From contig DVHB01000058.1 of the NCBI GenBank assembly GCA_018712405.1, positions 1 to 35,235 of the forward strand: a stretch of DNA of 35,235 nt, written 5' to 3'. Source of the stretch: Candidatus Coproplasma stercoripullorum (lineage in GTDB: Bacteria; Bacillota; Clostridia; Christensenellales; Borkfalkiaceae). Of the stretch, positions 4,227-29,812 are shown piece after piece. A program made the position numbers and the translations under genes. The notes under the pieces are model-generated. The model saw only the letters and a program-made list of their open reading frames with translations. It was not told where the DNA came from and made no database searches. Position 1 is the first letter of the stretch, and the number at the start of each line of letters is the position of its first letter.

Positions 4227-4508
4227 CCGAATTGAGCAAAATTTCTTATATTATACCCTCTATTATGCCCTCTTGCGACCTTGCCGATACCTTTTTGTCA
4301 TATTTTGCTTTACCACGCTGAATTATATACCATATTATATAAATAGAAAATAGGGCGCCGGAGAGGCTAAAGATTGTACCCAATTTTTTAAGCGCGAACC
4401 CCACCTTTAATTCCTCCCCTTGAGGGGAGGCTTTATTGCGGAACTATTTTTAAAAATAAATAACTGTGCGCAGGCGAATTAAAATAGCACCTCACCACAG
4501 CAAAAAGT
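4227..4508. other. Non-coding gap with T-rich and hairpin repeat fragments
   Basis: No gene is seen between the str promoter and the structured repeat. The region 4413-4441 carries CCTCCCC/GGGGAGG followed by CTTTATTGCGG. Then comes an AT-rich stretch ending in AATAACTGTGCGCA at about 4460-4470. Both pieces recur at 15270-15330, and the hairpin core also at 15202-15232 and, more loosely, 8012-8038. They look like members of a degenerate intergenic repeat family. Confidence 0.55.
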
Positions 4509-4516
4509 CCATAACG

Positions 4517-4636
4517 GGTTCAGAGATGCGAGCAGAACGAGGCGAACGCGGATTTGACCGCAGGGAGTGTACAAAGAGGTACACGACCAAGGCAAACCGC
4601 AAGTTCAACAAAGTTATGCGACGCATATATGAAGCC
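4517..4636. repeat. Covarying 3'-flank structured element, copy A1
   Basis: A ~120-bp element whose four copies share a nested fold. P1 is GGTTCA (4517-4522) with TGAA-G-CC (4630-4636, one bulged G). P2 is ATGCG (4526-4530) with CGCAT (4622-4626). P3 is GCGG..TTTG (4548-4556) with CAAA-CCGC (4593-4600). P4 is GTGTAC (4567-4572) with GTACAC (4579-4584) around the loop AAAGAG. The right edge continues GGGCGGAGTTTA and stops against the terminator of the aldolase-like gene, 25 bp from its stop codon. Short ORFs here are not convincing. Confidence 0.85.
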
Positions 4637-4647
4637 GGGCGGAGTTT

Positions 4648-4673
4648 AAAAGGCGTTGACATCAGTCAACGCC
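4648..4673 (-). terminator. Intrinsic terminator overlapping the aldolase stop codon
   Basis: GGCGTTGAC (4652-4660), loop ATCA and GTCAACGCC (4665-4673) make a perfect 9-bp hairpin. On the minus strand it is followed by TTTTAAA. The left arm in transcription order is the end of the coding sequence (codons for Gly-Val-Asp) and the loop contains the TGA stop. Confidence 0.75.
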
Positions 4674-5633
4674 CATGATCTCTTGAATGAATTGCTCATA
4701 GTCCTCGCGGTTCGCCTTGATGAAATCTATCGCCGCGTAGGGGTGAACGTTGTATATGCCCGTGAGAAGATATGCCGTGTCGTACCCCCATTTTACTTCC
4801 TTGGAAAGAGGGTTCATGTATTCGCGGATGAACTTTAACACGGGTTCCATTTTGTATTTGGGGTTCTTAAGAAAGCCCAAGAGCGCCTCGGTGTAGGCAT
4901 TGCCCGCGCCGCGTCCCATGCCGCAGACGGTGCCGTCGAGGTAGTTTACGCCCTTGGCGCACGCCTCAATCGTATTTGCAAAGGCGAGTTGCTGGTTGTT
5001 GTGCGCGTGTATGCCCACCTGCTTACCATACTTTGCGGCAATCTCGAGATACGTGTCGCAAATGGGACGGATCTGCTCGGGATAGAGCGCGCCGTAGCTG
5101 TCGACAATCACCATTATTTCGGCGGGCGACTGCGCTATTATTTCCAGCGCCTGCCTTAAGCTGCTCTCCTGCACCTTTGAAACGGCCATTACGTTGCAGC
5201 TCGTTCTGTAGCCCATTTTGGCGCAGTACTCTATCATTTCAATGGCTGTGGGCACTTGGTGAACGTAGGTCGCCACGCGGTACATGTCTATCACCGATTC
5301 TTTTTTGGGAATGACCTCTTCCTTTAAATCGACCCTGCCCACGTCGGACATTACGCTTATCAGCATATCTGTCTTATTTTCGCCGACTACCGCGCGGATA
5401 TCCTTTTCGTCACAGAACTTCCACTTGCCGAACTTGGTGGTATCGAACATCTTTTTGGATACCTTGTAGCCGAACTCCATTATATCCACGCCCGCGGCGA
5501 CGTTGGCCTCATAGAGCGCTTTTACGAAGTCGTCTTTGAAATAGAAGGAATTTACTATGCCGCCGTCGCGCAGCGTCGCATCCAAAATTTTAACTCCCTT
5601 CCTGAACGATTGAAGATTGCCTACGTTTTCCAT
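4662..5633 (-). CDS. DRE-TIM / HMGL-like aldolase family protein
   Basis: TIM-barrel metal-dependent aldolase/lyase of the family that includes 4-hydroxy-2-oxovalerate aldolase, HMG-CoA lyase and isopropylmalate synthase; 323 aa. Near residue 17 it has the signature LDATLRDGG, with the Arg and Asp of the active site. It also has the metal-binding HxH in QVGIHAHNNQQLAF and the glycine-rich GTVCGMGRGAGN loop. The length fits a stand-alone catalytic barrel without the C-terminal regulatory or communication domain, so the substrate cannot be named. The ATG has an AAGGAGAA site 10-11 nt upstream. It is monocistronic, with its own promoter, an adjacent palindrome and a terminator that overlaps its stop codon. 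No pathway neighbours help with substrate. Confidence 0.85.
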   Translation of the reverse strand: MENVGNLQSFRKGVKILDATLRDGGIVNSFYFKDDFVKALYEANVAAGVDIMEFGYKVSKKMFDTTKFGKWKFCDEKDIRAVVGENKTDMLISVMSDVGRVDLKEEVIPKKESVIDMYRVATYVHQVPTAIEMIEYCAKMGYRTSCNVMAVSKVQESSLRQALEIIAQSPAEIMVIVDSYGALYPEQIRPICDTYLEIAAKYGKQVGIHAHNNQQLAFANTIEACAKGVNYLDGTVCGMGRGAGNAYTEALLGFLKNPKYKMEPVLKFIREYMNPLSKEVKWGYDTAYLLTGIYNVHPYAAIDFIKANREDYEQFIQEIMGVD

Positions 5634-5704
5634 AAAAATATATTCTCCTTAAGAAATTGCCGCGCACTCCGCGCGCCAAAGTGTTTTCCGTAAAATTATT
5701 GTTT

Positions 5705-5734
5705 ATTATAACACGGCCTGCGCGGACTTGTCAA
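5705..5734 (-). promoter_or_regulatory. Strong sigma-A promoter for the aldolase-like gene
   Basis: Minus strand TTGACA (5729-5734), an 18-base spacer and TATAAT (5705-5710): both boxes are perfect consensus. It lies ~70 bp upstream of the start codon. Confidence 0.8.
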
Positions 5735-5736
5735 TC

Positions 5737-5754
5737 ACTTTATCATGATAAAGT
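5737..5754. promoter_or_regulatory. Perfect 18-bp palindrome abutting the -35 box (candidate operator)
   Basis: ACTTTATCATGATAAAGT is a perfect palindrome ending two bases from the TTGACA box. It has no loop, so it suits a dimeric DNA-binding protein better than an RNA hairpin. I cannot assign it to a known regulator. Confidence 0.55.
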
Positions 5755-5790
5755 AAAAATAGCGGCGGGCGCAAAGTTTGCGCCCGCCGC
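5755..5790 (-). terminator. recG: Intrinsic terminator after recG
   Basis: A GC-rich stem, GCGGCGGGCGC with GCGCCCGCCGC (5762-5790) and a short A/T loop, is followed on the minus strand by TATTTTTA. It lies ~70 bp after the recG stop and just before the palindrome and promoter of the next gene. Confidence 0.75.
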
Positions 5791-5859
5791 GCGGGACCTT
5801 AGTTTCGCAATCCCGGAAAAATTCCCTGCTCTGCAAGGCGGAAATTTTCGCGAACATGC

Positions 5860-7866
5860 TCAGTTCAGCACTACGTTTTCCAAACTCTTATATTTTTCAA
5901 GCGCGGCGCGGCGCAGGGCGGAAATTTCAAAATTGCCCGAAAAGGCTTCGTCCGATATCGCCTTTGCCGTGAATATCACGCTTGCGGGGAACTTTAAATT
6001 CTTTATCTCGGAGAGCACGCGGCCGCTCTGGCGTGTACCCATAAAGTCGCCCCCTCCCCTCAGCTCGAGGTCGGCCTCGGCTATCTTAAAGCCGTCGGAG
6101 TTGTTCTTTATCACCGACAATCTTTCGCGCGCCTGCGGCGTATCCGAGCCCATGAGCAGAAAGCAGTAGCTCTTCTCCGAGCCGCGGCCCACGCGCCCGC
6201 GCAGCTGGTGGAGCTGCGAAAGGCCGAAGCGCTCGGCGTTGTATATCACCATTATGGTGGCGTTTGGCACGTCCACCCCCACCTCTATCACCGTGGTAGA
6301 GACGAGGCAGTCATACTCTCCCTCTTTAAAGGCCTGCATTACGGCGTTCTTGTCCTTCTCCTTCATCTTGCCGTGCAAAAGGGCGAGGCGCACGCCGCTC
6401 ATCTTCGATTTGAGCTCCTCGAAAAGCTCGGTGACGGACATCACAGTGCCCTCGTCGTCGCCCTCTATCTTGGGGCAGACGAAATAGGCCTGCCTGCCCA
6501 GCTTTGCCTGTTCGGCGATGTATTTGATCATATCGCCGTATTTTGACGAGGGAATTATCGAGGTGGATATCTCCTGCCGCGCGGCGGGCTTATCCTTTAT
6601 GGTGGTTATATCCAGATCGCCGTAGAATATCAGCGAGAGCGTGCGGGGTATGGGCGTTGCCGACATTATCAAAACGTCGCTTCCCTCGCCCTTATCGGCA
6701 AGGGAAGCGCGCTGCGCCACGCCGAAGCGCTGCTGCTCGTCGCAGACGACGAGAGCGAGGTTTTTGAATACTACGTCCGCCTGAATGACGGCGTGCGTGC
6801 CGCAGATTATATCAATCTCCCCCCTTTTGAGGGCGGCCTTGACAGCCCGCTTTTCGGCGGCGGGCGTTGAACCGACGAGCAGGGCGCAGTTGTAGTCGGG
6901 GAAATACCGCTGAATTAGTGCAAAGCTCTGGCGGGCGAGCACCTCGGTGGGCGCGATCATGGCCGCCTGGTAGCCCGACTTTACCGCCATGAACATGCCC
7001 GTGAGCGCGACGGCCGTTTTGCCGCTGCCCACGTCGCCCTGCAGCAGCCTGTTCATCTGCGACGGGGAGCGGATATTATCGTATATGTCCCGCACGGCGG
7101 AGAGCTGGCCCGCGGTGAAATTGAACGGAAAGCGCGTCATAAAGCCGGCCACGTCCCTCTCGGTCACGGCGTAATTGTTGAGGCGCACGCGGCTTCCGTA
7201 CCCCTTTATCACGCGGAAGGCGGAAATCAACAGGAAATACTCCTCGAGCGCGATGCGCGCCGAGGCCTTTTTTATATCCTCCTGCGACTGAGGCGCGTGT
7301 ATGCGGCGGTAACTTTCCGACAACGGGATAATTTCATACTTTTTGCGCAGCGGCTCGGGAATGAAAGTTGTCGGCGTGCACTTTGTGAGCGCCTGGCGCA
7401 CGGCGTCGCGCACTATCTTCTGCGTGAGCGCGCCCGCGAGCGGGTACACGGGGATTATGCCCTTTAAATTTTTGTTGCTTGCGGCGGGCTCGAACGAAGG
7501 GTTTACCATGGAGGCGCCCATGCCGTACCTGTTCTGCACACGGCCGTAGAAGAGATATTCGCCCGGCTTGAGCTTTTGCAGCACATACGGCTGGTTGAAC
7601 CATAATGCGGTGAAGATGCAGCCGTTCTGCTGGCAGAGCGCCTTTACATACGGCCTGCGCGAATAGCGGTTGAACTCGGCATTTAAAACCTCGCACGCGA
7701 TGAGCGCCTGGGAGTTGTGCTCGACCTCTGTGATGGACGAGATGTGCGTGAGGTCCAAAAAATCACGCGGGTAGAGGCGCACGAGGTCCTCGCACGTAAA
7801 CACGCCCAGTTTATTGAAATCTTTTTCACGCTTTTCAGATATAAATTTCAGTTCGGTAAGTTTCAT
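5860..7866 (-). CDS. recG: ATP-dependent DNA helicase RecG
   Basis: Branch-migrating helicase that remodels stalled forks and Holliday junctions. From the ATG at 7866 it is 668 aa, typical for the family. An N-terminal wedge/OB domain is followed by the SF2 core: Walker A LLQGDVGSGKT (near 274-284), DEQQRFG (376-382), motif III SATPIPRT, and the C-terminal GRVGRG (557-562) plus the TRQSGR hook. The usual DEQH box reads DEQQ here. The frame opens at a TTG at 7911, but MKLTELKFISEKREKDFNKLG matches the family start; the ribosome site (GGTGG) is weak. recG follows fakA in the same order as in B. subtilis, without sdaAA/sdaAB. Confidence 0.95.
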   Translation of the reverse strand: MKLTELKFISEKREKDFNKLGVFTCEDLVRLYPRDFLDLTHISSITEVEHNSQALIACEVLNAEFNRYSRRPYVKALCQQNGCIFTALWFNQPYVLQKLKPGEYLFYGRVQNRYGMGASMVNPSFEPAASNKNLKGIIPVYPLAGALTQKIVRDAVRQALTKCTPTTFIPEPLRKKYEIIPLSESYRRIHAPQSQEDIKKASARIALEEYFLLISAFRVIKGYGSRVRLNNYAVTERDVAGFMTRFPFNFTAGQLSAVRDIYDNIRSPSQMNRLLQGDVGSGKTAVALTGMFMAVKSGYQAAMIAPTEVLARQSFALIQRYFPDYNCALLVGSTPAAEKRAVKAALKRGEIDIICGTHAVIQADVVFKNLALVVCDEQQRFGVAQRASLADKGEGSDVLIMSATPIPRTLSLIFYGDLDITTIKDKPAARQEISTSIIPSSKYGDMIKYIAEQAKLGRQAYFVCPKIEGDDEGTVMSVTELFEELKSKMSGVRLALLHGKMKEKDKNAVMQAFKEGEYDCLVSTTVIEVGVDVPNATIMVIYNAERFGLSQLHQLRGRVGRGSEKSYCFLLMGSDTPQARERLSVIKNNSDGFKIAEADLELRGGGDFMGTRQSGRVLSEIKNLKFPASVIFTAKAISDEAFSGNFEISALRRAALEKYKSLENVVLN

Positions 7867-8318
7867 CTTCCACCACATATGATAACGGGGAAAGACTTCG
7901 CCTTCCCCCAAAAAAAACTATATTCACAATATTTTGCAATTTAATGCGGCTTGAACTGAGCAGTCAGCCTGCGTATAATCATATATATCCCTCAGTCGGC
8001 TGCGCCGCCAGCTCCCTTTAGCAAGGGCGCCTTTAATGCGGACGAGATTTCTCCGTTTCGCCTTCAGCTCCAGTCGAAATGACAATATTATTTTATAAAT
8101 AAATAATATCGCAAGGCGGGGTCTCGCCGCCATTAAAGTAATGGCATGGCGGCTCGGTCACCGCAAGCGCTTTTGCCTATGCGCTTACTCATCTCATTTC
8201 GCCACGCACAATGGGTGTCCATTGTGCTATGAAATGGCTCATTCGTCCCGCCGCAGCCCTTGCCTGGATAACCCTCGTAGATGCGAGCAAGACACGAAGC
8301 CTCCCCCCGCCCATAACG
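7867..8318. repeat. Mosaic of intergenic repeat fragments upstream of recG
   Basis: No gene is supported. In order there is a CAGTCGGCTGCGCCGCCAGC-type unit with a CTCCC..GGG hairpin (7992-8038, related to 15249-15300). Next is a GAGATTTCTCC...GTCGAAATGAC unit (8046-8083, related to 19345-19397). Then come a GCCGCCAT/ATGGCGGC hairpin (8126-8153), a perfect CACAATGG/CCATTGTG hairpin (8207-8226), and a fragment resembling the left end of the covarying element (8279-8297, ATGCGAGCAAGACACGAAG). These units look like layered small non-autonomous repeats. Confidence 0.6.
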
Positions 8319-8435
8319 GGTTCAGAGTTGCGAGCAGAGCAAGGCGCGCGAGGAAAACCTGAGGGAGTTTACAAAGACGTAAATGACCGAAGGTTGCCAC
8401 AGCGCAACACCGCTATGCGACGCAAATATGAAGCC
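8319..8435. repeat. Covarying 3'-flank structured element, copy A2
   Basis: Same fold as the copy at 4517. P1 is GGTTCA (8319-8324) with TGAA-G-CC (8429-8435). P2 is TTGCG (8328-8332) with CGCAA (8421-8425). P3 is AACCT (8356-8360) with AGGTT (8391-8395). P4 is GTTTAC (8367-8372) with GTAAAT (8379-8384) around AAAGAC. The tail GGGCGGAGT is conserved. The fakA stop codon begins 25 bp beyond the right end. Confidence 0.85.
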
Positions 8436-8460
8436 GGGCGGAGTAAGTACTATCGTCTTG

Positions 8461-10110
8461 TCACTCTAAAGATACCATGTAATAGTACACCGGCTGCCCG
8501 CCGTAATGGAAATCGACGTCGCACTCGGGGAACTCTTCGGCAACCTTTTGGGAGAGCGCCTCGGCATCCTCCTCCGTCACGCCCTCGCCGTAATAGAGGG
8601 TGATCATTTCATGGTCATTGGTCTTCATGGCCTCGATGAGCTTTATCGTCGTTTCATCGATCGTCGAACCCTGTGCAAGTATCTTTTTGTTGTCGAGGCC
8701 TATGATATCGCCCTCCTTGAGCCTGAAGCCGTTCATCGTAGTATCGCGCACGGCATAGGTAACCAAGCCGGAGGTGACGTTATCGATGGCGTGCGTCATG
8801 TTCGTCTTGTTGACGGGCACGGACGCCTCGGGATTGAATGCGAGCGCCGCCGCAAAGCCCTGCGGCACGTTCTTTGTGGGTATTACATGGATCACGCGGT
8901 TTGTTACCAGGTCCTTTGCCTGTTCGGCCGCGAGAATTATATTCGAGTTGTTGGGGAATACGAACACATTCGAGGCGTTTATCTTCTGAACGGCGCTGGC
9001 TATATCCTGCGCGGAGGGATTCATCGTTTGTCCGCCCTCTATAACCCTGTCGCACATAAGGTCTTTGAAGATCTCGGCAAGACCCTCGCCCGAACATATG
9101 GCGAGCATGCCCATCTCCTTCTTTTCCGCCTCGAGCTTGGCCTTAAGCTGCCTGTTCTCCTCGAGCATGTTCTCTATCTTTATCCTGTCGAGCTCGCCCA
9201 GCTCGAGCGCGTACGAAAGCGCAATGCCGGGTGTGTTTGTGTGGACGTGCACCTTTACGAGCTCCAAATCGCCTATGCAGATGACGCTGTCGCCTATCTG
9301 CATGAGCTTTTCTTTGAGCCTGTCGATATCGGCGAGAGTGGTCATCGGCTTTAAATGAATGATGAAATATTCGGTGCAGTATGCAAACTCTATCTCGCCG
9401 AGGTCGAGGTTGATTATATCTGAGTTGTCGCCGAATTCCGGCTCCTTTTTAGGGGTCTGCGCGTCGGTCGGAATGTCGTCCGCACCGATGTCCTCGCCCG
9501 AAACTGCCGCAAGGAAGCCGCGCATTATGGTCATGAGGCCCACGCCGCCGCTGTCGACAACGCCGGCCTTCTTCAAAACGGGCAGAAGTTCGGGCGTATG
9601 CGCCAGCGCCTCGTCGCCCACGGCAATGAGCGCCGTAAGGAAATCTACGAAATCTTTATTCTTGCTCGCAAGTTTGGGGGCGGCCTCGCTCATCAGCCTT
9701 ACGACGGTGAGGATGGTGCCCTCTTTGGGCTTGGATACGGCGCTGTAGGCTATCTTTGTGCCCGCCTCTAAGGCCTTTGCAAAAGTCTTTGTATCGAAAC
9801 TCTGCTGGCATTCGCGTATGACAGAGCAAATGCCGCGGAATATCTGGCTGGTTATAACGCCCGAATTGCCGCGCGCGCCGCGCAGCGCGCCCTTGGAAAC
9901 GGCGTCGCAAATCTCCTGAAAATGATTGGAATTGCAGGCGTTCATCTCGGCTATGGCCGACTGCATGGTGAGCGACATATTCGTGCCCGTGTCGCCGTCG
10001 GGCACGGGGAATACGTTGAGGGCGTCGACTTTGGCCCTGTTTATTTCAAGCATTCTCGCACCGCTCGTGACCATCTTCCTAAAGTCGGTGCAGTTTATGA
10101 TTTTTTGCAT
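8461..10110 (-). CDS. fakA: DAK2-domain fatty acid kinase (YloV/FakA family)
   Basis: ATP-dependent subunit of the fatty acid kinase that phosphorylates FakB-bound fatty acids in the cytoplasm; 549 aa, full family length. The N-terminal DAK2 domain has the nucleotide/metal motif NVFPVPDGDTGTNM (residues 32-45) and the GALRGARGNSGVITSQIFRG segment. The middle and C-terminal domains match the YloV layout (VKVHVHTNTPG; FVFPNNSNIILAAEQA). The ATG has a GAGGAG site. It follows asp23/yloU by 61 bp, the conserved yloU-yloV pair. No fakB (DegV) gene is in the window. Function is from family knowledge. Confidence 0.93.
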   Translation of the reverse strand: MQKIINCTDFRKMVTSGARMLEINRAKVDALNVFPVPDGDTGTNMSLTMQSAIAEMNACNSNHFQEICDAVSKGALRGARGNSGVITSQIFRGICSVIRECQQSFDTKTFAKALEAGTKIAYSAVSKPKEGTILTVVRLMSEAAPKLASKNKDFVDFLTALIAVGDEALAHTPELLPVLKKAGVVDSGGVGLMTIMRGFLAAVSGEDIGADDIPTDAQTPKKEPEFGDNSDIINLDLGEIEFAYCTEYFIIHLKPMTTLADIDRLKEKLMQIGDSVICIGDLELVKVHVHTNTPGIALSYALELGELDRIKIENMLEENRQLKAKLEAEKKEMGMLAICSGEGLAEIFKDLMCDRVIEGGQTMNPSAQDIASAVQKINASNVFVFPNNSNIILAAEQAKDLVTNRVIHVIPTKNVPQGFAAALAFNPEASVPVNKTNMTHAIDNVTSGLVTYAVRDTTMNGFRLKEGDIIGLDNKKILAQGSTIDETTIKLIEAMKTNDHEMITLYYGEGVTEEDAEALSQKVAEEFPECDVDFHYGGQPVYYYMVSLE

Positions 10111-10171
10111 ATAGCTCCTCAGAAATTAAAGGCGCGTCCGAAATATTTCAGGGCGCGCAAAAACATGGAAA

Positions 10172-10525
10172 TCAGAGTTTGACTCCCATTATGTTTACGT
10201 TCACCGTATCTACGATCATGCCCGAAAAACGCTCCAACTTGTACTTTACTCCCTCTTTGAGCGATTCGGCCACGGCGTTTATCGAAACGCCGTACTTTAC
10301 GATGACGTATACGTCTATATATATCCTGTCGCCGTTGGTTACGACTTTTATCCCCTTGCCGGTGTTTGTGTTCTTTTTCAGAAGTTCCATAATGGAATCC
10401 TGCAGGCGGCGGGATACAAGTTCAACAATGCCGTAACATTCGAGCGCGGCGAAGGCCGCTACCTTGGCGAGTACCTGGTCGGATATCGAAATTTTACCGT
10501 AAACGTTGCTTGTATTGACTGACAT
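10172..10525 (-). CDS. Asp23/Gls24 family protein (YloU-like)
   Basis: Small envelope-stress-associated protein of the Asp23/Gls24 family, 117 aa. It has the family pattern of an N-terminal YGKISISDQVLAKVAAFAALECYGIVELVS helix and the VNVNIMGVKL end. The frame extends 16 codons upstream, but the ATG at 10523-10525 is preceded by AGGAGATGTT, so I start there. It has its own promoter and leads into fakA. Its precise biochemical role is not established from sequence. Confidence 0.9.
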   Translation of the reverse strand: MSVNTSNVYGKISISDQVLAKVAAFAALECYGIVELVSRRLQDSIMELLKKNTNTGKGIKVVTNGDRIYIDVYVIVKYGVSINAVAESLKEGVKYKLERFSGMIVDTVNVNIMGVKL

Positions 10526-10544
10526 AACATCTCCTGTCGTAGTT

Positions 10545-10573
10545 ATTTTATACCATTTGACGGCGTTTTGCAA
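10545..10573 (-). promoter_or_regulatory. Predicted promoter for asp23-fakA
   Basis: Minus strand TTGCAA (10568-10573), 17 bases, TAAAAT (10545-10550), ending 20 bp before the asp23 start codon. Confidence 0.6.
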
Positions 10574-10666
10574 GTCTTTCCCCCAACTTTTCGCATAAAA
10601 TGGGGGCAGGCGGCCCCAAAATTTTGCTCATCAAGCAAAAAAAATTCAAATTAAGGGCATTTTTGG

Positions 10667-10695
10667 TTGATTTTTTTTTGAACGGGTGCTATATT
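10667..10695 (+). promoter_or_regulatory. Predicted promoter for rpmB
   Basis: TTGATT (10667-10672), a 17-base spacer starting with a T-run, and TATATT (10690-10695), ~75 bp before the rpmB ATG. It is divergent from the asp23 promoter. Confidence 0.55.
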
Positions 10696-10770
10696 AATAT
10701 AGCCGTTTTTGAGAAGCGGCTTTTATTTACACTTATTTTTTGCAAATTTCCACCACGGAGGTGTTTTATT

Positions 10771-10956
10771 ATGTCGAGAGTATGCAGCGTATGCGGCAAG
10801 GGACAGACGTCGGGCAACAATGTTTCCCACTCCAAGAGAAGGACGAGGAGAACTTTCAAGGCAAACGTTCAGAAAATAAGCTATATCGACGCAAAAGGCA
10901 ACGCAGTTACGGGCTACGTGTGCACGAGGTGCATGAAGACCGTTGAAAGAGCGTAA
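10771..10956 (+). CDS. rpmB: 50S ribosomal protein L28 (zinc-binding form)
   Basis: Large-subunit protein, 61 aa. It reads MSRVCSVCGKGQTSGNNVSH and ends YVCTRCMKTVERA. The two CxxC pairs mark the cysteine-containing, zinc-ribbon version of L28. A longer frame opens at 10600, but the ATG at 10771 has a CGGAGGTG site and the family N-terminus. In B. subtilis rpmB sits head-to-head with yloU, and the same divergent arrangement is kept here. Confidence 0.97.
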   Translation: MSRVCSVCGKGQTSGNNVSHSKRRTRRTFKANVQKISYIDAKGNAVTGYVCTRCMKTVERA

Positions 10957-10988
10957 GTCTTTCAGGCGTAAACTGAATGCGGCTTGAC

Positions 10989-11020
10989 AGTTCGGGCGGC
11001 GTTTGCCGGCCGAACTTTTT
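10989..11020 (+). terminator. rpmB: Intrinsic terminator of rpmB
   Basis: AGTTCGG and CCGAACT enclose a CGGC/GCCG inner stem, followed by TTTTT; it lies 33 bp after the stop codon. Confidence 0.85.
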
Positions 11021-11183
11021 ATGTTGCAAAAATCAGCTGCAATGCGGATTAAAGTAAGGGAAAAGCCCCGCCGCGCCGCTTCTTCGCCGCCACGGTTGTC
11101 TTTTAGCAATTTGACAATATAAATATGCAATTTCATATTCAAGACAGAGATTGAAAATTGCCGCAAGACATATATATAGCGTT

Positions 11184-11219
11184 AAAACGAGCCTGATTTT
11201 TTAAAATCAGGCTCGTTTT
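11184..11219. terminator. Bidirectional terminator between rpmB and the LRR gene
   Basis: A perfect 17-bp inverted repeat, AAAACGAGCCTGATTTT with AAAATCAGGCTCGTTTT, separated by TT. Each strand ends its stem in a T-run. It serves the convergent LRR lipoprotein gene and backs up the rpmB terminator. Nothing else is recognisable in 11021-11183. Confidence 0.8.
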
Positions 11220-11296
11220 GATTATATCAGGTAAAAAAATTCGAAAATGCGCAGCGCAAGGCATTCCGCCAATATATATTGCCAACACAGAAAATG

Positions 11297-12478: not shown

Positions 12479-12740
12479 ATCGTACCCAAGCGCGAAAAAC
12501 AGTGCGCGCCCATCAATCTGAATTTCAATATATTTATTTTAACATATCTGTGCTATGCACGCAAGGGAAACGGGCTGAATATCTTGTGAAATAAAATTGC
12601 GGAGCGCGGCTTCGCCGTCTGTATTTCTCTCGGGGTGCATTTTTTGCCGAACGGCCGCGGGGCGCGCAATCTTTGCGCGCCCCGCGGCCTGAACAGAACC
12701 TGATATCTCATTTCAATTCATTTAAAAAAGCAGGCGGCTC
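12479..12740. other. Intergenic gap with a perfect 17-bp GC-rich hairpin
   Basis: The stem arms are 12653-12669 and 12673-12689 with a TCT loop; it begins GGCCGCGGGGCG. It lies ~50 bp past the dipeptidase stop. Neither strand has a T-run directly after it, so it is a questionable terminator or a repeat. No promoter for the LRR gene is convincing. Confidence 0.5.
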
Positions 12741-13676
12741 TCAGCCGCACACATCCCTGAACACGCGCTCAAAATTGCCGCGCGCAACCTTTTCGGCTAT
12801 GCGCGGACCGAATTTTTCGGCAATTCTGCGCAGTAATACGGGCATGCCTTCGCATGATTCCATACCTGCCTGTGGCAGCATGCCGTCAAAGTCCGAACCG
12901 ATAGCCGCGCAGTCCTCCCCGCCGACATCTATTATATGCGCGACGTGCAGGAGCGCGCCCTCCATAGCGTTTTCGCCGCCTGAAAAATCCAAGCAGAAGT
13001 TTATTGCCGCAATGCCGCCGCAGTCGGCAATACCCCTTATCTGCCCGTCGGTCAGGTTACGGCTGACGGGATGCAGCGCAAAGGCGTTTGAGTGGCTGGC
13101 CACGAGCGGCTTTTTTCTGCCGCGCAAGAGGTCCGAAAGTCCTCCGTCGGAGAGATGCGAAACATCGATTATTATGCCCGCGTTGTCGAGCGCATCTGCC
13201 GCGTCACGCCCGCGCGGCTTTAACCCGCGTTCCTCGCGCGAACGAAAATCGGGTTTACCGCCGCGGAACTTTAAATTAGGATAAGCAAGCGCGTTTTCGT
13301 CGTTCCAGACAAGCGAGGCCATGCGCACTCCCGCGGCATAGAGCCCTGCGATATCGGCAGGCGAAGAGATAAAGCCGATATTTTCAGCCGTCAATATACA
13401 GCCCGGTTTGCCCTCAGTTATTGCAGTCTCAAGGTCGGCACAGCACAAAACGGGCGCACATATATCAGAACTTTCGCAAATTTCCCGCCTGAAAAACGCG
13501 GCGTACTCATAAAATTTTTCCCTTGTACCGCCCTGCATAAAGATAGCGAAACACTGTGCGGCACACCCGGCCGCGCATAAGCGCTCAAAATCGAGCTGAA
13601 GATTGTTTTTGCGTAAACTCAGGCCTTTGTCGCTCGCAAAGGTCAAAGTATCGCAATGCATGTCTATGTAATTCAT
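12741..13676 (-). CDS. Membrane dipeptidase family (peptidase M19)
   Basis: Zinc-dependent dipeptidase related to renal dipeptidase, 311 aa, normal for bacterial members. The metal-binding HxD is at residues 7-9 (MNYIDMHCDTL). Later come ILTAENIGF, the IIIDVSHLSDGG and VASHSNAFALHPVSRNLTD motifs with the second-site histidines, and IGSDFDGM. No signal peptide is seen, so it is probably cytoplasmic and cleaves dipeptides or related amides. There is no good ribosome site before the ATG. It lies between the thiN terminator and the LRR gene. Confidence 0.92.
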   Translation of the reverse strand: MNYIDMHCDTLTFASDKGLSLRKNNLQLDFERLCAAGCAAQCFAIFMQGGTREKFYEYAAFFRREICESSDICAPVLCCADLETAITEGKPGCILTAENIGFISSPADIAGLYAAGVRMASLVWNDENALAYPNLKFRGGKPDFRSREERGLKPRGRDAADALDNAGIIIDVSHLSDGGLSDLLRGRKKPLVASHSNAFALHPVSRNLTDGQIRGIADCGGIAAINFCLDFSGGENAMEGALLHVAHIIDVGGEDCAAIGSDFDGMLPQAGMESCEGMPVLLRRIAEKFGPRIAEKVARGNFERVFRDVCG

Positions 13677-13686
13677 AATCTTGTGT

Positions 13687-13727
13687 AAAAAACAGCGTTA
13701 ATTGCCGCATATGTGCGGTGCAATTAA
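13687..13727 (-). terminator. Probable terminator after thiN
   Basis: TTAATTGC (13698-13705) and GCAATTAA (13720-13727) enclose a CGCA/TGCG inner stem. On the minus strand TTTTTT follows after five bases. It would end the yicC-to-thiN transcript. Confidence 0.45.
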
Positions 13728-13805
13728 TTTTTATGCGCTAAAATTCCAAGCACTTTGCGGACGGGTTTGGGCGGCTTCACGCATACGACGATAATTTTAT
13801 TCAAC

Positions 13806-14411
13806 TTACACGCTCCCAAGGTTTATTACTACGAGGGCGGTATCGCCCTCGCCGAACACTACGCGGGCGTCAGCGCTCTCCACAATGTTGGATACGCCGC
13901 GGCACTCACCGTATGAAATGACTTCGGGGTAGCTGTACTTAAGCCCTCTGCTACACATTATATGCAGGGGCGCAGAAAAGGGAAACACCGATATCGTCCT
14001 GCCGGCATAGCCGCCGAGCTCAACACATCCGCGCACCGCGCAAATTATAGTGCTTTCGCTCAAAAGACGCGCACATATGCCGCGTTGAACGCAGTAATAC
14101 AGCAGCTGGACATTGCCTAAAAAATGGTCTTCCCTGCCTCCGAACGCGCCGTATATGTCTATTTCCGTAACACCGTCGGCAATCATCTTGCGCACTGCGA
14201 TCTCGCCGTCGGTAAAGTTCTTTTCGGAGGGGTAAACTTCGTCGGGCGGAGGTACGGGCGGCTCGTCCAGGCTGTCGAAATCGCCGATATTTTTATATAT
14301 CTCCACCCTGCCCTTTGCCCAGTGATAGGCGCCGTCGCAGCAATATACGTGGCAGCCTTTGGGTATTTCGCCGCTATATGGCGTACCGTTTAAAAGCAGT
14401 ATGCCCTTCAT
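13806..14411 (-). CDS. thiN: Thiamine pyrophosphokinase
   Basis: Transfers pyrophosphate from ATP to thiamine to make thiamine diphosphate; 201 aa. Family motifs seen are CDGAYHWA, the metal-binding NIGDFDSLD, YPSEKNFTDGEIAVRKMI and GAFGGREDHFLGNVQLL. Its ATG overlaps the rpe stop (ATGA, 14408-14411), indicating translational coupling. rpe-thiN adjacency is also seen in B. subtilis. No TPP riboswitch is visible, in line with a housekeeping salvage role. Confidence 0.93.
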   Translation of the reverse strand: MKGILLLNGTPYSGEIPKGCHVYCCDGAYHWAKGRVEIYKNIGDFDSLDEPPVPPPDEVYPSEKNFTDGEIAVRKMIADGVTEIDIYGAFGGREDHFLGNVQLLYYCVQRGICARLLSESTIICAVRGCVELGGYAGRTISVFPFSAPLHIMCSRGLKYSYPEVISYGECRGVSNIVESADARVVFGEGDTALVVINLGSV

Positions 14412-15076
14412 TGCCCGCGAAGTTCCCTGGTTGCCGCCGCAAAGTCGGGCGCGGAGAAGAGCGCCGAGCCCGCCACGAGCACGTTTGCGCCCGCATCTAT
14501 GACAAGCGGCGCAGTTTTTGCGTTTATGCCGCCGTCCACCTCGATATCAAGCTCGGGTTTGCCGATAGTTTTGGCATATTCCCGCGCCGATCTGATTTTT
14601 TCGAGCGAGCCTTCGATGAATTTCTGCCCGCCGTAGCCGGGGAATACCGACATTATGAGCACCATGTCGCACAGGCCGAACACTGGGAAGATGTTCTGCA
14701 CGGGCACGTCGGGGTTGACCACCGCGCCGCACTTTACGCCGTACGACTTTATCAGTTCGAGCGTCTCTTTAAGGTAGCTTTCAGATATCTTTGCGCACGC
14801 CTCGTAATGCACGGTTATTATGTCGGCGCCCGCCTCGGCAAAGAACTTTATCTGCGTTTTGGGGTGCTCTATCATGAGGTGCACATCGAGCGGAAGTTTT
14901 GTTACGGGACGGATATTTTTTACCATCTGCCCGCCGAAGGTTATGGGGCCGACGAACGAGCCGTCCATGACGTCGCAGTGAATAAGATCTGCCCCGCTCC
15001 TCTCGCAGAGCCCTACGGCCTCGCCCATGCGCGAAAAATCGGCCGAAAGTATTGAAGGCGCTATCTTGATTTGCAT
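14408..15076 (-). CDS. rpe: Ribulose-phosphate 3-epimerase
   Basis: Interconverts ribulose-5-P and xylulose-5-P in the pentose phosphate pathway; 222 aa TIM barrel. Motifs include IKIAPSILSADFSRM, HCDVMDGSFVGPITFG, LDVHLMIEHP, VHYEA, the PGYGGQKFI phosphate loop and DIEVDGGIN, with the two catalytic Asp and the metal His residues present. A GGAGA ribosome site precedes the ATG. Upstream lies a 436-bp repeat-filled gap where B. subtilis has prpC-prkC-rsgA. Confidence 0.97.
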   Translation of the reverse strand: MQIKIAPSILSADFSRMGEAVGLCERSGADLIHCDVMDGSFVGPITFGGQMVKNIRPVTKLPLDVHLMIEHPKTQIKFFAEAGADIITVHYEACAKISESYLKETLELIKSYGVKCGAVVNPDVPVQNIFPVFGLCDMVLIMSVFPGYGGQKFIEGSLEKIRSAREYAKTIGKPELDIEVDGGINAKTAPLVIDAGANVLVAGSALFSAPDFAAATRELRGQ

Positions 15077-15383
15077 ATTATATTCTCCGTTAAAACAAGT
15101 AGTTTACTAAAATTTTATACCGCAATACATATACGCCCGTAGCGGGTTCAGAGAAAAGTGCCAAGAACCCCTCCGAGTTGTTTGAGCAGAGCGAAAACAA
15201 CTCACCTCCCCTTAATGGGAGGCTTAATGCGGTGAAAAGCATAAACCCTTAAGTCGACTTCGTCGCCAGCTCCCCTTAAAAAGTGGAGCCTATATTGCGG
15301 AATAATTTTCAAATAATAACTGTGCGCAAGCAGGGTTTCCCTGCGCAACAGGATAAAATTTTCACCTTATTAAAGCAGTTAAT
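15077..15383. repeat. Repeat mosaic between rlmN and rpe
   Basis: No gene is supported. The pieces are: a CCCG-TAG-CGGGTTCAGAG head fragment (15132-15150) like the left end of the covarying element; CTCCCC-TTAAT-GGGAG-type hairpins (15202-15232 and 15270-15300); and the TATTGCGGAATAA ... AATAACTGTGCGCA block (15292-15330) shared with 4433-4470. A CAGGG/CCCTG hairpin lies near 15330-15345. Confidence 0.6.
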
Positions 15384-15503
15384 AACTTCATAGAAGCGAG
15401 CAAGACAAGGAAGCGTGCGGAAGTTGTGAAGGAGCTTACTTAGAGGTAAGTGACTGAACAAAGCCGTAAGCGCGACACCGTATTGCGACGCTTATATGAA
15501 GTT
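15384..15503. repeat. Covarying 3'-flank structured element, copy A3
   Basis: P1 is a perfect 9-bp AACTTCATA (15384-15392) with TATGAAGTT (15495-15503). P2 is AAGCG (15394-15398) with CGCTT (15489-15493). P3 is TTGT (15424-15427) with ACAA (15458-15461), extended by GCGG/CCGT. P4 is GCTTAC (15434-15439) with GTAAGT (15446-15451) around TTAGAG. The conserved tail GGCGGAGTTTA contains the rlmN stop codon (15513-15515). Confidence 0.85.
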
Positions 15504-15512
15504 TGGCGGAGT

Positions 15513-16553
15513 TTAGTTATTTTTAATATAACCTGCCCTGAGTTGGCCGCACGCCCCGCCAATATCCGCCCCCATTCTTCTCCGCAGGGTGGCGGATATG
15601 CCGCCTGCGGTGAGCGTCTTTAAAAACGCCTGGGCGTTTTTTTCGCTCGCTGCCAAAAGAGCACGCTCCTTTACCTCGTTAAGCCTTATCAGATTCACAT
15701 GGCACGGCCTGCCCTTTAAAAGGCTTATAAGCGCCCTTGCGTGCGCCTCGTCGGCGTTTTCGCCCTCGATGAGCGAATATTCAAAGATATATCTGCGGCC
15801 CGTCTTTTCAAAGTAATTGGTGCATGCCGCCAGAATTTCGGCTATTTTATAGCGCTTTGCAATCGGCATGGTACGGGCGCGCTCTTCATCGGTAACGTTG
15901 TGGAGAGATACTGTGAGGTTTACCGGCAGGCCCTCCTCCGCGAGGGCGTACATCTTTGGCACAAGTCCGCAGGTTGAGAGACTGACGTTGCGGGGGGAGA
16001 TATTTATGCCGCCCTCCGCCGCCATGTCGCGGATAAATTTTATCACATTTTCGTAGTTATCGAGCGGTTCGCCGCTGCCCATCAATACGACATTGGTCAC
16101 TTGGCGCTTCTTTTCGGTGCCGCCGTGCACGGCGTTCACCTTTAAGACCTGCGACAGGATCTCGCCCGACGAAAGATTGCGCACGAGGCCGCCCAAAGTG
16201 CTGGCGCAGAACTTGCAGCCCATGCGGCAGCCCACCTGCGTGGAGACGCACTGCGTGTTGCCGTATTTATATTTCATCAGAACGCCTTCGATTATGTTGC
16301 CGTCGGCAAGGCGGAAGAGATACTTCTCCGTCCCGTCGGCCGAGACGAGCGTTTTGACGACCTCTATGGCGCAGTCCTCGAACTGCTCTGAAAGCTTCGC
16401 CTTGAAAGCATTGGGGAGCGCGGGAATATCGGAAATGTTGTGCCCGCGCATTATGCCGCTGTAGAGCTGTTTCGCGCGGAAGGGCTTCTCTCCCATCTCC
16501 TCGACGAGCTTTTCAAGCTCCTTTAAGTTGTAGTCCTGAATGATTTTTTTCAT
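15513..16553 (-). CDS. rlmN: Dual-specificity rRNA/tRNA adenine-C2 methyltransferase RlmN
   Basis: Radical-SAM enzyme that methylates A2503 of 23S rRNA and A37 of some tRNAs; 346 aa. The iron-sulfur motif is C109-x3-C113-x2-C116 (VGCRMGCKFCAS), followed by GEPLDNYENV and the SLHNVTDEER region; a conserved Cys lies near the C-terminus (IGGACGQL). The start is uncertain. The ATG at 16553 fits the family (MKKIIQDYNLKELEKL) but lacks a ribosome site; a TTG at 16580 in frame is an alternative, and the frame opens at a TTG at 16616 overlapping rsmB. It follows rsmB directly in the operon. Confidence 0.93.
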   Translation of the reverse strand: MKKIIQDYNLKELEKLVEEMGEKPFRAKQLYSGIMRGHNISDIPALPNAFKAKLSEQFEDCAIEVVKTLVSADGTEKYLFRLADGNIIEGVLMKYKYGNTQCVSTQVGCRMGCKFCASTLGGLVRNLSSGEILSQVLKVNAVHGGTEKKRQVTNVVLMGSGEPLDNYENVIKFIRDMAAEGGINISPRNVSLSTCGLVPKMYALAEEGLPVNLTVSLHNVTDEERARTMPIAKRYKIAEILAACTNYFEKTGRRYIFEYSLIEGENADEAHARALISLLKGRPCHVNLIRLNEVKERALLAASEKNAQAFLKTLTAGGISATLRRRMGADIGGACGQLRAGYIKNN

Positions 16554-16599
16554 AGTTGAGGCATATGTGGGGGTCAATTTGCACTTTGCGCAAAACAGG

Positions 16600-17823
16600 T
16601 CATGCCTTGCGCACAAGTTCGGTCACAAAGAAGCCCGCGCCGAGAGATATATGCGGCAGAAACTGAAGGCCGAATTTGGTGCGGCTCGAGGGAAGAGCGC
16701 AATCCGGGATATGCAGCTCAAAACCCTGATTTTGCTGCAGGAAGTTGTAGATCACGCTGTCATTCTCCTCGGGAAGTATCGAACAGGTGGAGTAGTACAG
16801 GCTGCCGCCCGGTTTTACATAGCGCGAGCAGTTTGAAATTATTTTGAGCTGCAGCGCGGCGAGCGAGGATATGTCCTCCCCCCTTCGGAAAAGCTTTATG
16901 TCGGGATTTTCGTTGATGACGCCGCTGCCCGAGCAGGGGACGTCGCATAAAACGCCGTCGAACGCGCCCTCCCATTCGGGGTTGAACGCCGAGGCGTCGC
17001 CCACGACGGCGGCAACGTTGCCTGCGCCCATGCGGGCGGCATACGACTTTATGAGTTCGGCGCGGTGGGGATGCAGCTCCTGCGAGGTGACAAAACCGCA
17101 CTTTTTTGAAAGGAGCACGCTCTTGCCACCCGGTGCGGCGCAGGCGTCGAGCAGACGTTCGCAAGGGGATATGACCGAACAAATGGCGACCGAACCCACC
17201 GACTGAAAGGTATAGTCACCTCTGTCGTAGCCGCTGTCGCGCACAAAATTTTTAAAGATATAAACGTGTTCAAAGGGCGTTTTTATGTATTCGCCCTTTA
17301 AATACTCCTCCTTGCCCCGCTCAAAGCGCACGCATACGCCGGGCGCGGGGGCAGAGAGAATGGCCTCGGCCTCACCCTTATAGCTGCGGCGCATCTTTTT
17401 TGCAAGCCAGAGCGGCGCGCTGGCGGCAATCGAGAGCCGCTCGTCGGCGCTATCGGGCAGGGGCGGGACTTTATATGAGCGCAGAAAGGCGTTGACAAAG
17501 CCGGCGGCGCCCTCCTTGCCGAGTTTTTTTGTGAGTTCGACGGCGCAGTCGGCCACCATATAGCCGTGCTTGCCCATAAATTCGAGCATATACAGCGCGA
17601 TCTTGAGGACCAGCCGCACGGCGGCCTTGGGCGACTTTTTGCAATTTGCCCCTATGATATGGCCCAGATACACGTCCTTTTCAAGCACGCCGTAACATAT
17701 CTTTGAGGTGCGCGGGCGGTTTATAGGCTCTATGGGCGTATCGGCGAGCGCCTGCTTTAAATACGCGCCCTCCGAATATACCTTTGTAAGGACCAGAAAG
17801 GGGTCTGTGAGCGGATTATTCAA
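16600..17823 (-). CDS. rsmB: 16S rRNA (cytosine-967-C5)-methyltransferase RsmB
   Basis: Methylates C967 of 16S rRNA. A NusB-like N-terminal domain is followed by a Rossmann methyltransferase domain with LDACAAPGGKSVLLS (SAM binding) and the two cysteine motifs CDVPCSGSGVINENPDI and YYSTCSILPEEND. I choose the TTG at 17821-17823 (NNPLTDPFLVLTKVYSEG follows), giving 407 aa. It has GGGTGAT just upstream and overlaps the fmt stop. The frame extends 23 codons further into fmt without family similarity. It sits between fmt and rlmN, the canonical order. Confidence 0.93.
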   Translation of the reverse strand: MNNPLTDPFLVLTKVYSEGAYLKQALADTPIEPINRPRTSKICYGVLEKDVYLGHIIGANCKKSPKAAVRLVLKIALYMLEFMGKHGYMVADCAVELTKKLGKEGAAGFVNAFLRSYKVPPLPDSADERLSIAASAPLWLAKKMRRSYKGEAEAILSAPAPGVCVRFERGKEEYLKGEYIKTPFEHVYIFKNFVRDSGYDRGDYTFQSVGSVAICSVISPCERLLDACAAPGGKSVLLSKKCGFVTSQELHPHRAELIKSYAARMGAGNVAAVVGDASAFNPEWEGAFDGVLCDVPCSGSGVINENPDIKLFRRGEDISSLAALQLKIISNCSRYVKPGGSLYYSTCSILPEENDSVIYNFLQQNQGFELHIPDCALPSSRTKFGLQFLPHISLGAGFFVTELVRKA

Positions 17824-18733
17824 GGATATCACCCGCCGAAATTTTGCGGCCGTTGAAGATATCGGGCGCGGCGAGGCGCTTGCCGCCCGCAAACTGCGCC
17901 TCGGTGATGAGCACGGCGCCCGTGCCGCAGGCCACCTTTACGCCGCGCTTTGTGACCTCTATCACCGTGCCGCAGGGGCCCGAGCCTTCAGATACATAGG
18001 CGCGGTAAAAATTTACGGGCGCGCCCTTTAAATGAGCGAACGCCGCGGGCGAGGGGCTCATGGCGTTTATCAGCGCGCATACCTCTTTTGCAGGCGCGGA
18101 GAAATTGACTTGTGCATCCTCTTTTTTTATCTTTTTGCAGAAAGTTGCGGCACTTTCGTCCTGTAAAAGCAGGGCGGTGTCGCCGCGCTCAATGAGGTCA
18201 TACGCCTCACACAGCGCCTCGGCAGAGAGCGACGAGAGGCGCGCGGAAAGCTCGCCGCACGTTTCGCCGTCGCAGATGGCGCAGCGCTTTGTGAGCAATA
18301 TGTCGCCTGCGTCGAGCGCAAGCTCAGTCTTCATTATGGTAACGCCCGTGACAGATTCGCCCGCGAGTATGGCCGATTGAACGGGAGAAGCGCCCCTGTG
18401 TTTCGGAAGCAGCGAGGCGTGCGCGTTCCACACGCCGAGCGGGAATAAACCCAGCACCTCACGCGAGAGAAGCTGACCGTAAGCGCAGGTAAACATAGCG
18501 TCCGCGCCGAGAGATCTCAGCTCTTCGACGCGCTCGCGTATCTTTTTGAACTGATATACGGGGAGTCCGGCCGAGAGTGCATACTGCTTTACGGGCGGGG
18601 GCGTCAACACGCCCCTGCGACCGAACGGCCTGTCTTCCTGGGTTATCACGGCGACTATTTCACAGCCCTTTTCGTGCAGCGCTTTGAGGGGCGCCACGGC
18701 GTACTGCGGAGTGCCCGCGTAAATTATCTTCAT
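17816..18733 (-). CDS. fmt: Methionyl-tRNA formyltransferase
   Basis: Formylates initiator Met-tRNA using 10-formyl-THF; 305 aa. The N-terminal formyltransferase fold has IIYAGTPQYAVAPLKAL, the active-site stretch WNAHASLLPKHRGASPVQSAILAG (the SLLPKHRG motif with catalytic Asn and His), and GVTIMKTELALDAGDIL with the catalytic Asp. The C-terminal domain runs from about residue 205. def lies 66 bp upstream, the standard def-fmt pair for formylation and deformylation of nascent proteins. Confidence 0.97.
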   Translation of the reverse strand: MKIIYAGTPQYAVAPLKALHEKGCEIVAVITQEDRPFGRRGVLTPPPVKQYALSAGLPVYQFKKIRERVEELRSLGADAMFTCAYGQLLSREVLGLFPLGVWNAHASLLPKHRGASPVQSAILAGESVTGVTIMKTELALDAGDILLTKRCAICDGETCGELSARLSSLSAEALCEAYDLIERGDTALLLQDESAATFCKKIKKEDAQVNFSAPAKEVCALINAMSPSPAAFAHLKGAPVNFYRAYVSEGSGPCGTVIEVTKRGVKVACGTGAVLITEAQFAGGKRLAAPDIFNGRKISAGDILE

Positions 18734-18799
18734 CTAACACTCTCCGTGCCGATTAGCCGAGCGCTGATAGCTTTTAACACTCGGCCGATGCGGCGAAAA

Positions 18800-19294
18800 T
18801 TACTGCTTGTCCTCTTGGGGTTCGATGCGGCGGCCCTCGGAGTCGATATCGTAGACCTCGACCGCCTTGTCGATATATAAAATGCCGTCGAGGTGGTCGA
18901 GCTCATGACAGACGGCGCGGGCAAAGAAACCCTCGGCCGTGAGCTTGTGCTTGCGGCCCTTTCTGTCGCGATATTCGAGCTTCACCTTGTCGGGGCGGAT
19001 GACCGTACCCTGCTTGCCCCTCACCGAGAGACAGCCCTCGGGGCCGACTTGTTCGCCCTTGGTTGAGTATATGACGGGGTTTACAAGCTCGAAAAAGCCC
19101 TCGTCAACGTCCACAACTACCACGCGCGCATCCACGCCCACCTGGGGCGCGGCGAGACCCGCGCCGTCCTCCGCGCGGACGGTCGTCTTCATGTCGTCTA
19201 AAAGGGCGCCAAGATCATCGTTGAAATTTTTAACCTCTTTGCAGACCTTGCGAAGAACGGGATCGCCGACCTGCACTACATATCTCTGAGCCAT
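18800..19294 (-). CDS. def: Peptide deformylase
   Basis: Metalloenzyme removing the N-formyl group from nascent chains; 164 aa. All three family motifs are present: GAGLAAPQVG, EGCLSV (metal Cys) and HELDHLDG (HExxH, two metal His and the catalytic Glu). It starts MAQRYVVQVGDPVLRK. It lies between priA and fmt in the housekeeping operon. A 323-bp repeat-bearing gap separates it from priA, so it may also have its own promoter. Confidence 0.97.
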   Translation of the reverse strand: MAQRYVVQVGDPVLRKVCKEVKNFNDDLGALLDDMKTTVRAEDGAGLAAPQVGVDARVVVVDVDEGFFELVNPVIYSTKGEQVGPEGCLSVRGKQGTVIRPDKVKLEYRDRKGRKHKLTAEGFFARAVCHELDHLDGILYIDKAVEVYDIDSEGRRIEPQEDKQ

Positions 19295-19498
19295 ATATAT
19301 ACCTCTGTTGTATGATTAATTTGAATGTATGTATTTATTTTAAGACTTCTCGACTGCGCGGCCGCACACCGTGCCGCCGCTCCGCTCGAAATGACAGAAT
19401 ATAGAATTTATGTAAAATAATTTTAGCCGCAGCAAAACGCAATTAATAACTATGGCGATGCGAGCAGAGCAAGGCGCGTGCGGATATACGCGCGGCCC
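19295..19498. repeat. Repeat fragments between priA and def
   Basis: 19345-19397 contains the GACTTCTCGACTGCGC ... GCTCGAAATGAC unit related to 8046-8083. 19452-19497 is a partial head of the covarying element (ATGCGAGCAGAGCAAGGCGCG), followed by a GCGCGT/ACGCGC hairpin. The full element follows at 19499. No gene is seen. Confidence 0.6.
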
Positions 19499-19622
19499 CC
19501 TGAGTTCAAAGAAACGAGCAGTACGCGGCGCGCGAGGAAAACTTGAGGGAGTTTACTTTGGCGTAAATGACCGAAAGTTGCCGCAGCGCAACAAAGTAAT
19601 GCGACGTTTATTTGGGCTCAGG
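19499..19622. repeat. Covarying 3'-flank structured element, copy A4 (overlaps the priA stop)
   Basis: P1 is CCTGAGTTCAAA (19499-19510) with TTTGGGCTCAGG (19611-19622), 12 pairs including two G-U. P2 is AAACG (19512-19516) with CGTTT (19605-19609). P3 is AACTT (19540-19544) with AAGTT (19575-19579). P4 is GTTTAC (19551-19556) with GTAAAT (19563-19568) around TTTGGC. The right half of P1 contains the priA TGA stop (19618-19620), so the last codons are part of the fold. Confidence 0.85.
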
Positions 19623-29704: not shown

Positions 29705-29812
29705 TCACGAAAAACCTTTTGCCTTTGTCAAAATCTTTTTCCGTGAGATTTTATTTTGTCGTAGGACGGCTTTACCCCCGAACTAAATTCGGGCTGCCGT
29801 TATTCGGCATTA
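29705..29812. repeat. Dispersed two-hairpin repeat, copy 2
   Basis: Homologous to 3193-3280. Hairpin 1 is TCACGAAAAA (29705-29714) with TTTTT-C-CGTGA (29736-29746), keeping the bulged C but with a longer loop. The shared ATTTTGTCGTA follows. Hairpin 2 is ACGGC (29766-29770) with GCCGT (29796-29800), enclosing CCCGAA-CTAAA-TTCGGG. The tail TTCGGCATTA is shared. Paired positions differ from copy 1 in a compensating way. The rest of 29813-29970 shows a short tandem ATTTATAATG unit and no gene. Confidence 0.75.

Follow-up and report, generated by a model that had tools for sequence, protein, structure and literature searches.

Small structured mobile repeats, some of which lie near stop codons, are an already known kind of bacterial element, and as far as we know most of them are scattered in spacers. 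Published reports describe REPs as 20-40 bp long (PMC3733652), place 446 of 4,072 Escherichia coli REPs within 15 nt of a stop codon (PMC12306157), and link the orientation of ERIC sequences relative to the neighbouring gene with mRNA stability (PMC2229807). Here we describe a structured element of ~125-150 nt that occurs in four copies in a stretch of 35,235 nt of Candidatus Coproplasma stercoripullorum (contig DVHB01000058.1; hereafter the window) and in many genera of one order of gut Clostridia. We estimate at about 0.62 the probability that it represents a family of non-autonomous structured mobile elements with oriented docking at the 3' ends of genes and RNAs, and the best reading of its kind is a non-autonomous mobile hairpin similar to ERIC, RUP or REP.

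The first-pass annotation of the window had reported a covarying fold 0-25 bp from the stop codons of four minus-strand genes, an observation that is confirmed and was understated. The bounds given by R1, a covariance model built from 22 copies of this genome, place all four copies on the plus strand, at 4515-4641 (131.8 bits), 8317-8440 (123.8 bits), 15383-15508 (122.5 bits) and 19501-19624 (114.0 bits). The first lies 3' of an HMGL-like/aldolase family gene (4662-5633, minus strand; PF00682, 4.1e-23), whose stop codon (4662-4664) is 20 nt from the end of the model. The second is also 20 nt from a stop codon (8461-8463), that of fakA (8461-10110, minus strand; DAK2/YloV family, TIGR03599, 7.3e-187), and the third is 4 nt from that of rlmN (15513-15515; gene 15513-16616, minus strand; TIGR00048, 3.5e-108). 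The stop codon of priA (19618-19620; gene 19618-21789, minus strand; TIGR00595, 1.4e-177) is inside the fourth copy, within its outer stem. The element is a single long imperfect hairpin in which internal loops are conserved and helices covary, and the helices first described are there: one adjoining the outer stem, an apical one that closes a six-base loop, and a middle one, which in two copies reads AACCT/AGGTT or AACTT/AAGTT. The plus strand of every copy folds better than its own reverse complement and than all 200 of its own shuffles, with z-scores of -7.3, -5.7, -5.4 and -5.1 in the order given above.

A covariation test, proposed together with the first description, gives scores above both shuffled and slid controls in each of two alignments. 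Among the 22 copies of this genome, 96.5% of the cells are paired, both-sided changes affect 21 of 32 pairs, and the score is 0.450, against 0.196 after shuffling (none of 500 as high) and at most 0.087 in the slid control. The 38 matches from a sample of the order, which were aligned with R1 itself so that their alignment leans toward the model, reach 0.550, against 0.167 and at most 0.135. Another measure, that of further pair types, exceeds the shuffles only in the order sample (0/500 as high, and 219/500 in the 22 copies). A chance origin of the conserved pairing is excluded. Since the loops are kept while the helices vary, the perfecting of palindromes by template switching would not, alone, explain the pattern.

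The window copies belong to a large family. In this genome (G000, 82% complete), blastn with the first copy returned 26 matches and R1 returned 55 (E <= 0.1), of which 48 are full-length and score 93 bits or more; the others are two weaker matches, a single marginal one and four fragments located at contig ends. Because four contigs (C34, C37, C44 and C59) stop within its apical hairpin, the element probably has slightly more copies than were counted. The first-pass annotation had also suggested searching related genomes with such a model. At E <= 0.001 the 24 congeners have from 0 copies (G008, G018) to 56 (G006) and 68 (G014), with up to 85 candidates scored per genome and filters stricter than in the survey of the order. 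In the latter, where up to 11 candidates were scored per genome, 110 of the 297 genomes, representing 42 of the 125 genera, had a match at E <= 1e-6, this genome included. Rfam gave no match in the window at gathering scores and, with E up to 5, three weak matches in 4400-4760, all to the left of the element. We recognised no description of the family in the titles and opening lines of abstracts returned by literature searches, which is not proof of absence.

Both the association with gene ends and the constant orientation extend from this genome to the genus and to other genera. In 43 of the 48 own copies, a gene runs toward the element and its stop codon falls between -12 and +30 nt of the model's right end. 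At L037 and at the first copy of L100, an open reading frame (ORF) left unscored by the gene finder ends beside the element. The element of L046 comes after the T-run hairpin downstream of a SAM riboswitch (the terminator of an S-box leader), that of L089 after the end of a T-box leader terminator, and the remaining copy (L097) is the outer member of a tandem pair. This tally combines scored genes, leader terminators and ORFs read by hand. The gene finder omits ORFs shorter than 40 amino acids, which is why copies at rpmJ-like ORFs seemed distant from a stop codon; these ORFs and those of L037, L068 and L100 were read without a coding score. In the congeners we considered the 121 distinct copies among about 150 best rows of the search, a top-scoring sample. 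A right-hand gene ends at 104 of them, in 90 cases within -20 to +30 nt. The 14 out-of-range copies include three that end at rpmJ-like ORFs (L062, L063, L069) and seven with a terminator-like hairpin in the gap (L299, L071, L314, L317, L328, L335, L351); the other four are L305, L072, L354 and the second copy of L349. The other 17 copies comprise 12 outer tandem copies, one without a gene and four with a gene starting on the right (L339, L340, L352 and L068, where an ORF also ends at +3).

Similar placement is found at larger evolutionary distances. In the order sample (36 distinct copies), 22 of 26 are in range of the stop codon of the right-hand gene; outside it are L439, at an rpmJ-like ORF, L427, after a hairpin, L445, which abuts the 3' end of a tmRNA (RF00023; one copy), and L425. 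The rest are seven outer tandem copies, one copy that lacks a gene and two that have a gene start on their right, one of which (L436) follows a hairpin-bearing TPP leader whose match is below the family gathering score. Near rlmN in other genera (18 of 19 matches, the weakest dropped), 14 innermost copies have a gene end beside them, of which 13 are in range and L131 is not. Uniform placement in the spacers would dock 8.8 of 39 own copies, 27.9 of 101 in the congeners and 4.9 of 22 in the order sample, whereas 38, 87 and 18 are docked. For this comparison, as for the analyses of partial copies, terminal stems, pairs and strands, the own set includes a duplicate (L087:1-118, the L051 copy, cut) and lacks the lowest-scoring copy (L100:958-1082).

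Wobble pairs suggest which strand folds. Over 198 copies, G-U cells outnumber A-C cells by 272 to 46 on the element strand, or by 106 to 46 without one near-invariant G-U pair, the cells not being independent of each other. The direction agrees with the better folding of the same strand in the four window copies, and the strand that folds would thus be the complement of the mRNA. A folded single strand of DNA, or an antisense RNA, is therefore favoured over an RNA of the 3' untranslated region (3' UTR).

The element is closed by a terminal stem of ~9 bp. At its positions 1-8, 82-100% of the 120 docked copies are paired (41-65% when the arms are shuffled), and pairing is down to background from position 10. 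Within the first 12 positions, 112 of 159 stop-codon bases are paired (77 when shuffled, maximum 96), and so are 37 of 95 coding bases (33.7 when shuffled, maximum 46). The right arms of the 11 closest same-genome pairs (core score of at least 0.94; one pair within one locus) differ at 0-2 of 9 bases. Among 47 similar pairs, 17 have arms that differ at three or more bases, and in these a copy's own arms pair at 7.6 of 9 positions, a value that drops to 5.2 after swapping. Since the closest copies share their arms and diverged arms still pair, the stem moves with the element, diverges and remains paired. We also considered that the stem is copied anew from the gene end at each insertion, and rejected this for most copies because the closest copies share arms, pairing ends at ~9-10 bp and coding bases pair at the values given above; such copying is still possible at sites like queA.

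In eight genomes of five genera (L074, L431, L433, L434, L441, L448, L482, L488), the stop codon of queA lies in the inner loop of the element, its last codons are one arm of the stem, and the other arm tracks their changes, mostly with one or two mismatches. This pairing is kept, or remade, over long times. The idea that queA is the universal ancestral site was rejected: R1 has a match near queA in 4 of the 42 loci examined, at the gene end in L471, L482 and L488 and ~85 nt off in L483. These loci are the 30 best-scoring of 59 matches and 12 that were picked, some for an element already known nearby. At L444 (~1501-1624), the final bases of a queA-like gene (TGTTTTTAATATA) are directly repeated at the start of the element arm; this repeat might reflect duplication of the target or copying of the gene end.

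Some loci contain more than one copy, full or partial. Leaving out a duplicate locus, ten partial copies are found at eight places in this genome, each adjoining a full copy and all of them gene-distal: nine are left-end pieces and one is internal (L032), two of the ten having E > 0.1. Truncated, gene-distal stubs of older copies stand in the window beside the second copy (8260-8300, plus strand; nhmmer E 1.5e-4) and the fourth (19437-19489, plus strand; nhmmer E 2e-6). Outer tandem copies often score lower (L064, L423, L428, L429, L448). A purely polar growth of the arrays was rejected as not clean, the distal copy having the higher score in L279 and L097 and the tandems of L288 and L064 being local duplications. 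In one locus (L102:1492-1741), ~110 nt of other sequence interrupt the element near its apical part.

Near-identical copies at different genes and the variable copy number indicate mobility. Few orthologous gene ends have the element: R1 matches the end of fakA in 4 of the 19 genus members (G000, G001, G002, G005), that of rlmN in 1 of 19 and the 3' end of priA in 1 of the 17 with a 3' flank (G010 and G018 are cut by a contig end), which points to fast turnover. Among the congener orthologues, priA ends in NLS and a stop codon whether or not the element is present, and the fakA end is also kept. The family resembles bacterial miniature inverted-repeat transposable elements (MITEs) in being a small dispersed non-coding repeat with terminal inverted repeats (48 copies, ~9-bp stem). 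Symmetric TA ends occur in 45 of 165 copies, against 17.6 expected and a maximum of 27 in 300 shuffles. Searches of phages and plasmids by blastn, with one copy each as query, and of IMG/VR with one exact gapped pattern gave no match, so no carrier was found at those sensitivities. Among 31 genomes, the Y1 transposase (PF01797) was found in 10, including one gene in this genome, and reverse transcriptase (RT; PF00078) in nine, including G014; PF00078 was not found in G000, itself 82% complete. Both were missing from the copy-rich G006, G009, G016 and G017. The link to an IS200/IS605-type transposase suggested by the first-pass annotation, examined through the Y1 family, was not borne out: PF01797 was found in G018, which has no copies, and not in G006 or G014 (assemblies 93% and 97% complete).

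In the reading that we favour, the element would spread as a single strand in folded form, complementary to the mRNA; some putative enzyme would handle this strand, and insertion would be directed to the boundary where translation or transcription ends. At certain long-standing sites, complementarity between the terminal stem and the gene end persists. Docking within a few nucleotides is left unexplained by uniform placement in the spacers, which inclines us toward directed insertion rather than selection alone. A more specific version, which we hold only tentatively, is that the element reads the RNA 3' end: insertion coupled to termination would hit stop codons, terminator ends, attenuated leaders and tmRNA in one orientation, by a mechanism involving no known transposase or RT. 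Several observations weigh against the favoured reading as a whole. Seven copies (L305, L072, L354, the second of L349, L339, L131 and L425) fell into none of the docked groups, and L446 and both L165 copies precede a gene start. At L340 and L352 the element lies, in its folding sense, within a leader that reads like a TPP riboswitch, where it extends a helix that reads like P3 (Rfam did not call the TPP aptamer at these loci). The 17 pairs with diverged arms imply that arms are also exchanged, the tandems of L288 and L064 duplicate flank together with part of the element, and the pairing kept at queA suggests a function at least there. No mobilising enzyme tracks copy number among Y1 and RT, other transposase families not having been searched. 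Finally, there is no empty site at base level: the closest congeners have at most 82% DNA identity over the priA loci and no alignment of congener 3' UTRs could be made by eye, which leaves any target-site duplication unproven.

The first-pass annotation had offered a choice between a mobile hairpin and a 3'-UTR RNA. Mobility gains support from the range of 0-68 copies per congener, the near-identical copies at different genes and the partial or lower-scoring distal copies, and we infer directed targeting from placement. The other half of the choice supposes a post-transcriptional element whose mRNA-sense strand would fold over the stop codon and act on translation termination or mRNA decay, selection for that function keeping position and orientation. 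It is weakened by the wobble pairs that favour the opposite strand, by the rapid turnover of the gene set (see priA, rlmN and fakA above) and by docking also at tmRNA and leader terminators. It is kept alive by the position at the stop codon, by the pairing of the last codons of queA in several genera, and by reported precedents of such action for REPs near stop codons (PMC12306157) and for ERIC in Yersinia (PMC2229807); we regard it as rather unlikely. Directed insertion would also be unnecessary if an ordinary MITE inserted at random and purifying selection removed the other positions and the other orientation. The compactness of these genomes and the TA-like ends of part of the family fit such a process. 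But the left-hand gaps have a median of 190 nt in the congeners while the right end is a few nucleotides from the stop codon, uniform placement predicts docking three to four times below that observed, and orientation is nearly invariant, all of which leaves this account improbable.

Hairpins located at gene ends, with terminal arms that are A/T-rich in some congeners, might also be transcription terminator modules. Comparisons by eye of G009 with its near relative G004 speak against this. The element of L323 separates the stop codon from a terminator-like hairpin that is also in G004, that of L071 comes after a hairpin also in G004, that of L314 likewise follows a hairpin, and those of L303, L318 and L327 sit between genes that in G004 are only ~12-30 nt apart. 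Separate terminator-like hairpins are retained alongside the element in L299, L317, L335 and L351 as well, and none of the 38 terminator-like sites (hairpin and immediate T run) of window positions 4300-19900 falls within the four copies. Accordingly, the element is probably not a strong terminator, and we give the terminator hypothesis very little credence. A hairpin of the REP or IS200-IS605 type moved by a Y1 (HUH) transposase seems equally far-fetched: a strand-specific single-strand fold and the Y1 gene of this genome are in its favour, but the distribution of Y1 among copy-rich and copy-free genomes runs counter to it and REPs are far shorter (PMC3733652).

Some other repeats were noticed along the way. 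At L035, L057, L018, L278 and L280 (G000 and G002), a recurrent AGAATGTTG stretch lies between the tail of the element and the stop codon, and probably marks a subfamily with an extended right end. A further family of hairpins (TTCACGAAATTTT..CTGGCCGAG..GTGAGTTTGAGAAACC) also begins at stop codons, at L247, L220 and L189 (after rlmN, fakA and priA in G016) and at L106; after rlmN of G016, the last codons and the stop form one arm of a long near-perfect hairpin. The window also contains a 63-nt direct repeat, 83% identical, at 3218-3280 and 29750-29812 (family D9), and a spacer repeat with CCCTCAGTCGGCTGCGCCGCCAGCTCCC at 7983-8025 and 15241-15283 (family D6), which resembles repeats common in gut Clostridia.

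Overall, in many genera of the order the element lies within a few nucleotides of the 3' end of a gene or RNA and has a single orientation, and we know of no such repeat with near-complete oriented docking of this sort. If insertion is directed, this would be a new targeting principle, termination-coupled insertion; if selection is responsible instead, the family would be a large natural experiment on what such a structure does when it sits at a stop codon. Either reading can be tested directly with the covariance model and the list of congeners that have many copies or none.

The comparison with known systems shows where the family stands. Integron attC sites are imperfect palindromes that follow a stop codon in a fixed orientation and are active as folded single strands; the position and orientation are similar here, but the element is at scattered core genes such as priA and rlmN and not in a cassette array, and no RYYYAAC/GTTRRRY boxes were seen by eye, no tool search having been made. 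Group IIC introns insert just after intrinsic terminators; the element is far too short to be one, is mostly at stop codons, and no RT was found in this genome. REP/BIME sequences with their RAYT (TnpA-REP) are also palindromes outside genes, some of which lie no more than 15 nt from a stop codon, but they are 20-40 bp long, against ~125 nt here (PMC3733652), and a minority of them are near stop codons, against nearly all here (PMC12306157); moreover, the Y1 transposase does not track copy number in our genomes. The closest likeness is to ERIC (127 bp), RUP and Correia/NEMIS, which are likewise of 100-200 nt, fold into a long imperfect stem-loop, occur in many dispersed copies and have TA at their termini, TA-like ends being present in part of the family here. 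ERIC shares with the element an orientation-dependent relation to the neighbouring gene (PMC2229807). The element has no Rfam match, its sequence not having been compared with ERIC directly, and it differs from these repeats in that nearly all copies share one orientation and adjoin a stop codon or the 3' end of an RNA, that several short covarying helices lie between conserved loops, and that at some sites the gene's own last codons form the terminal stem.

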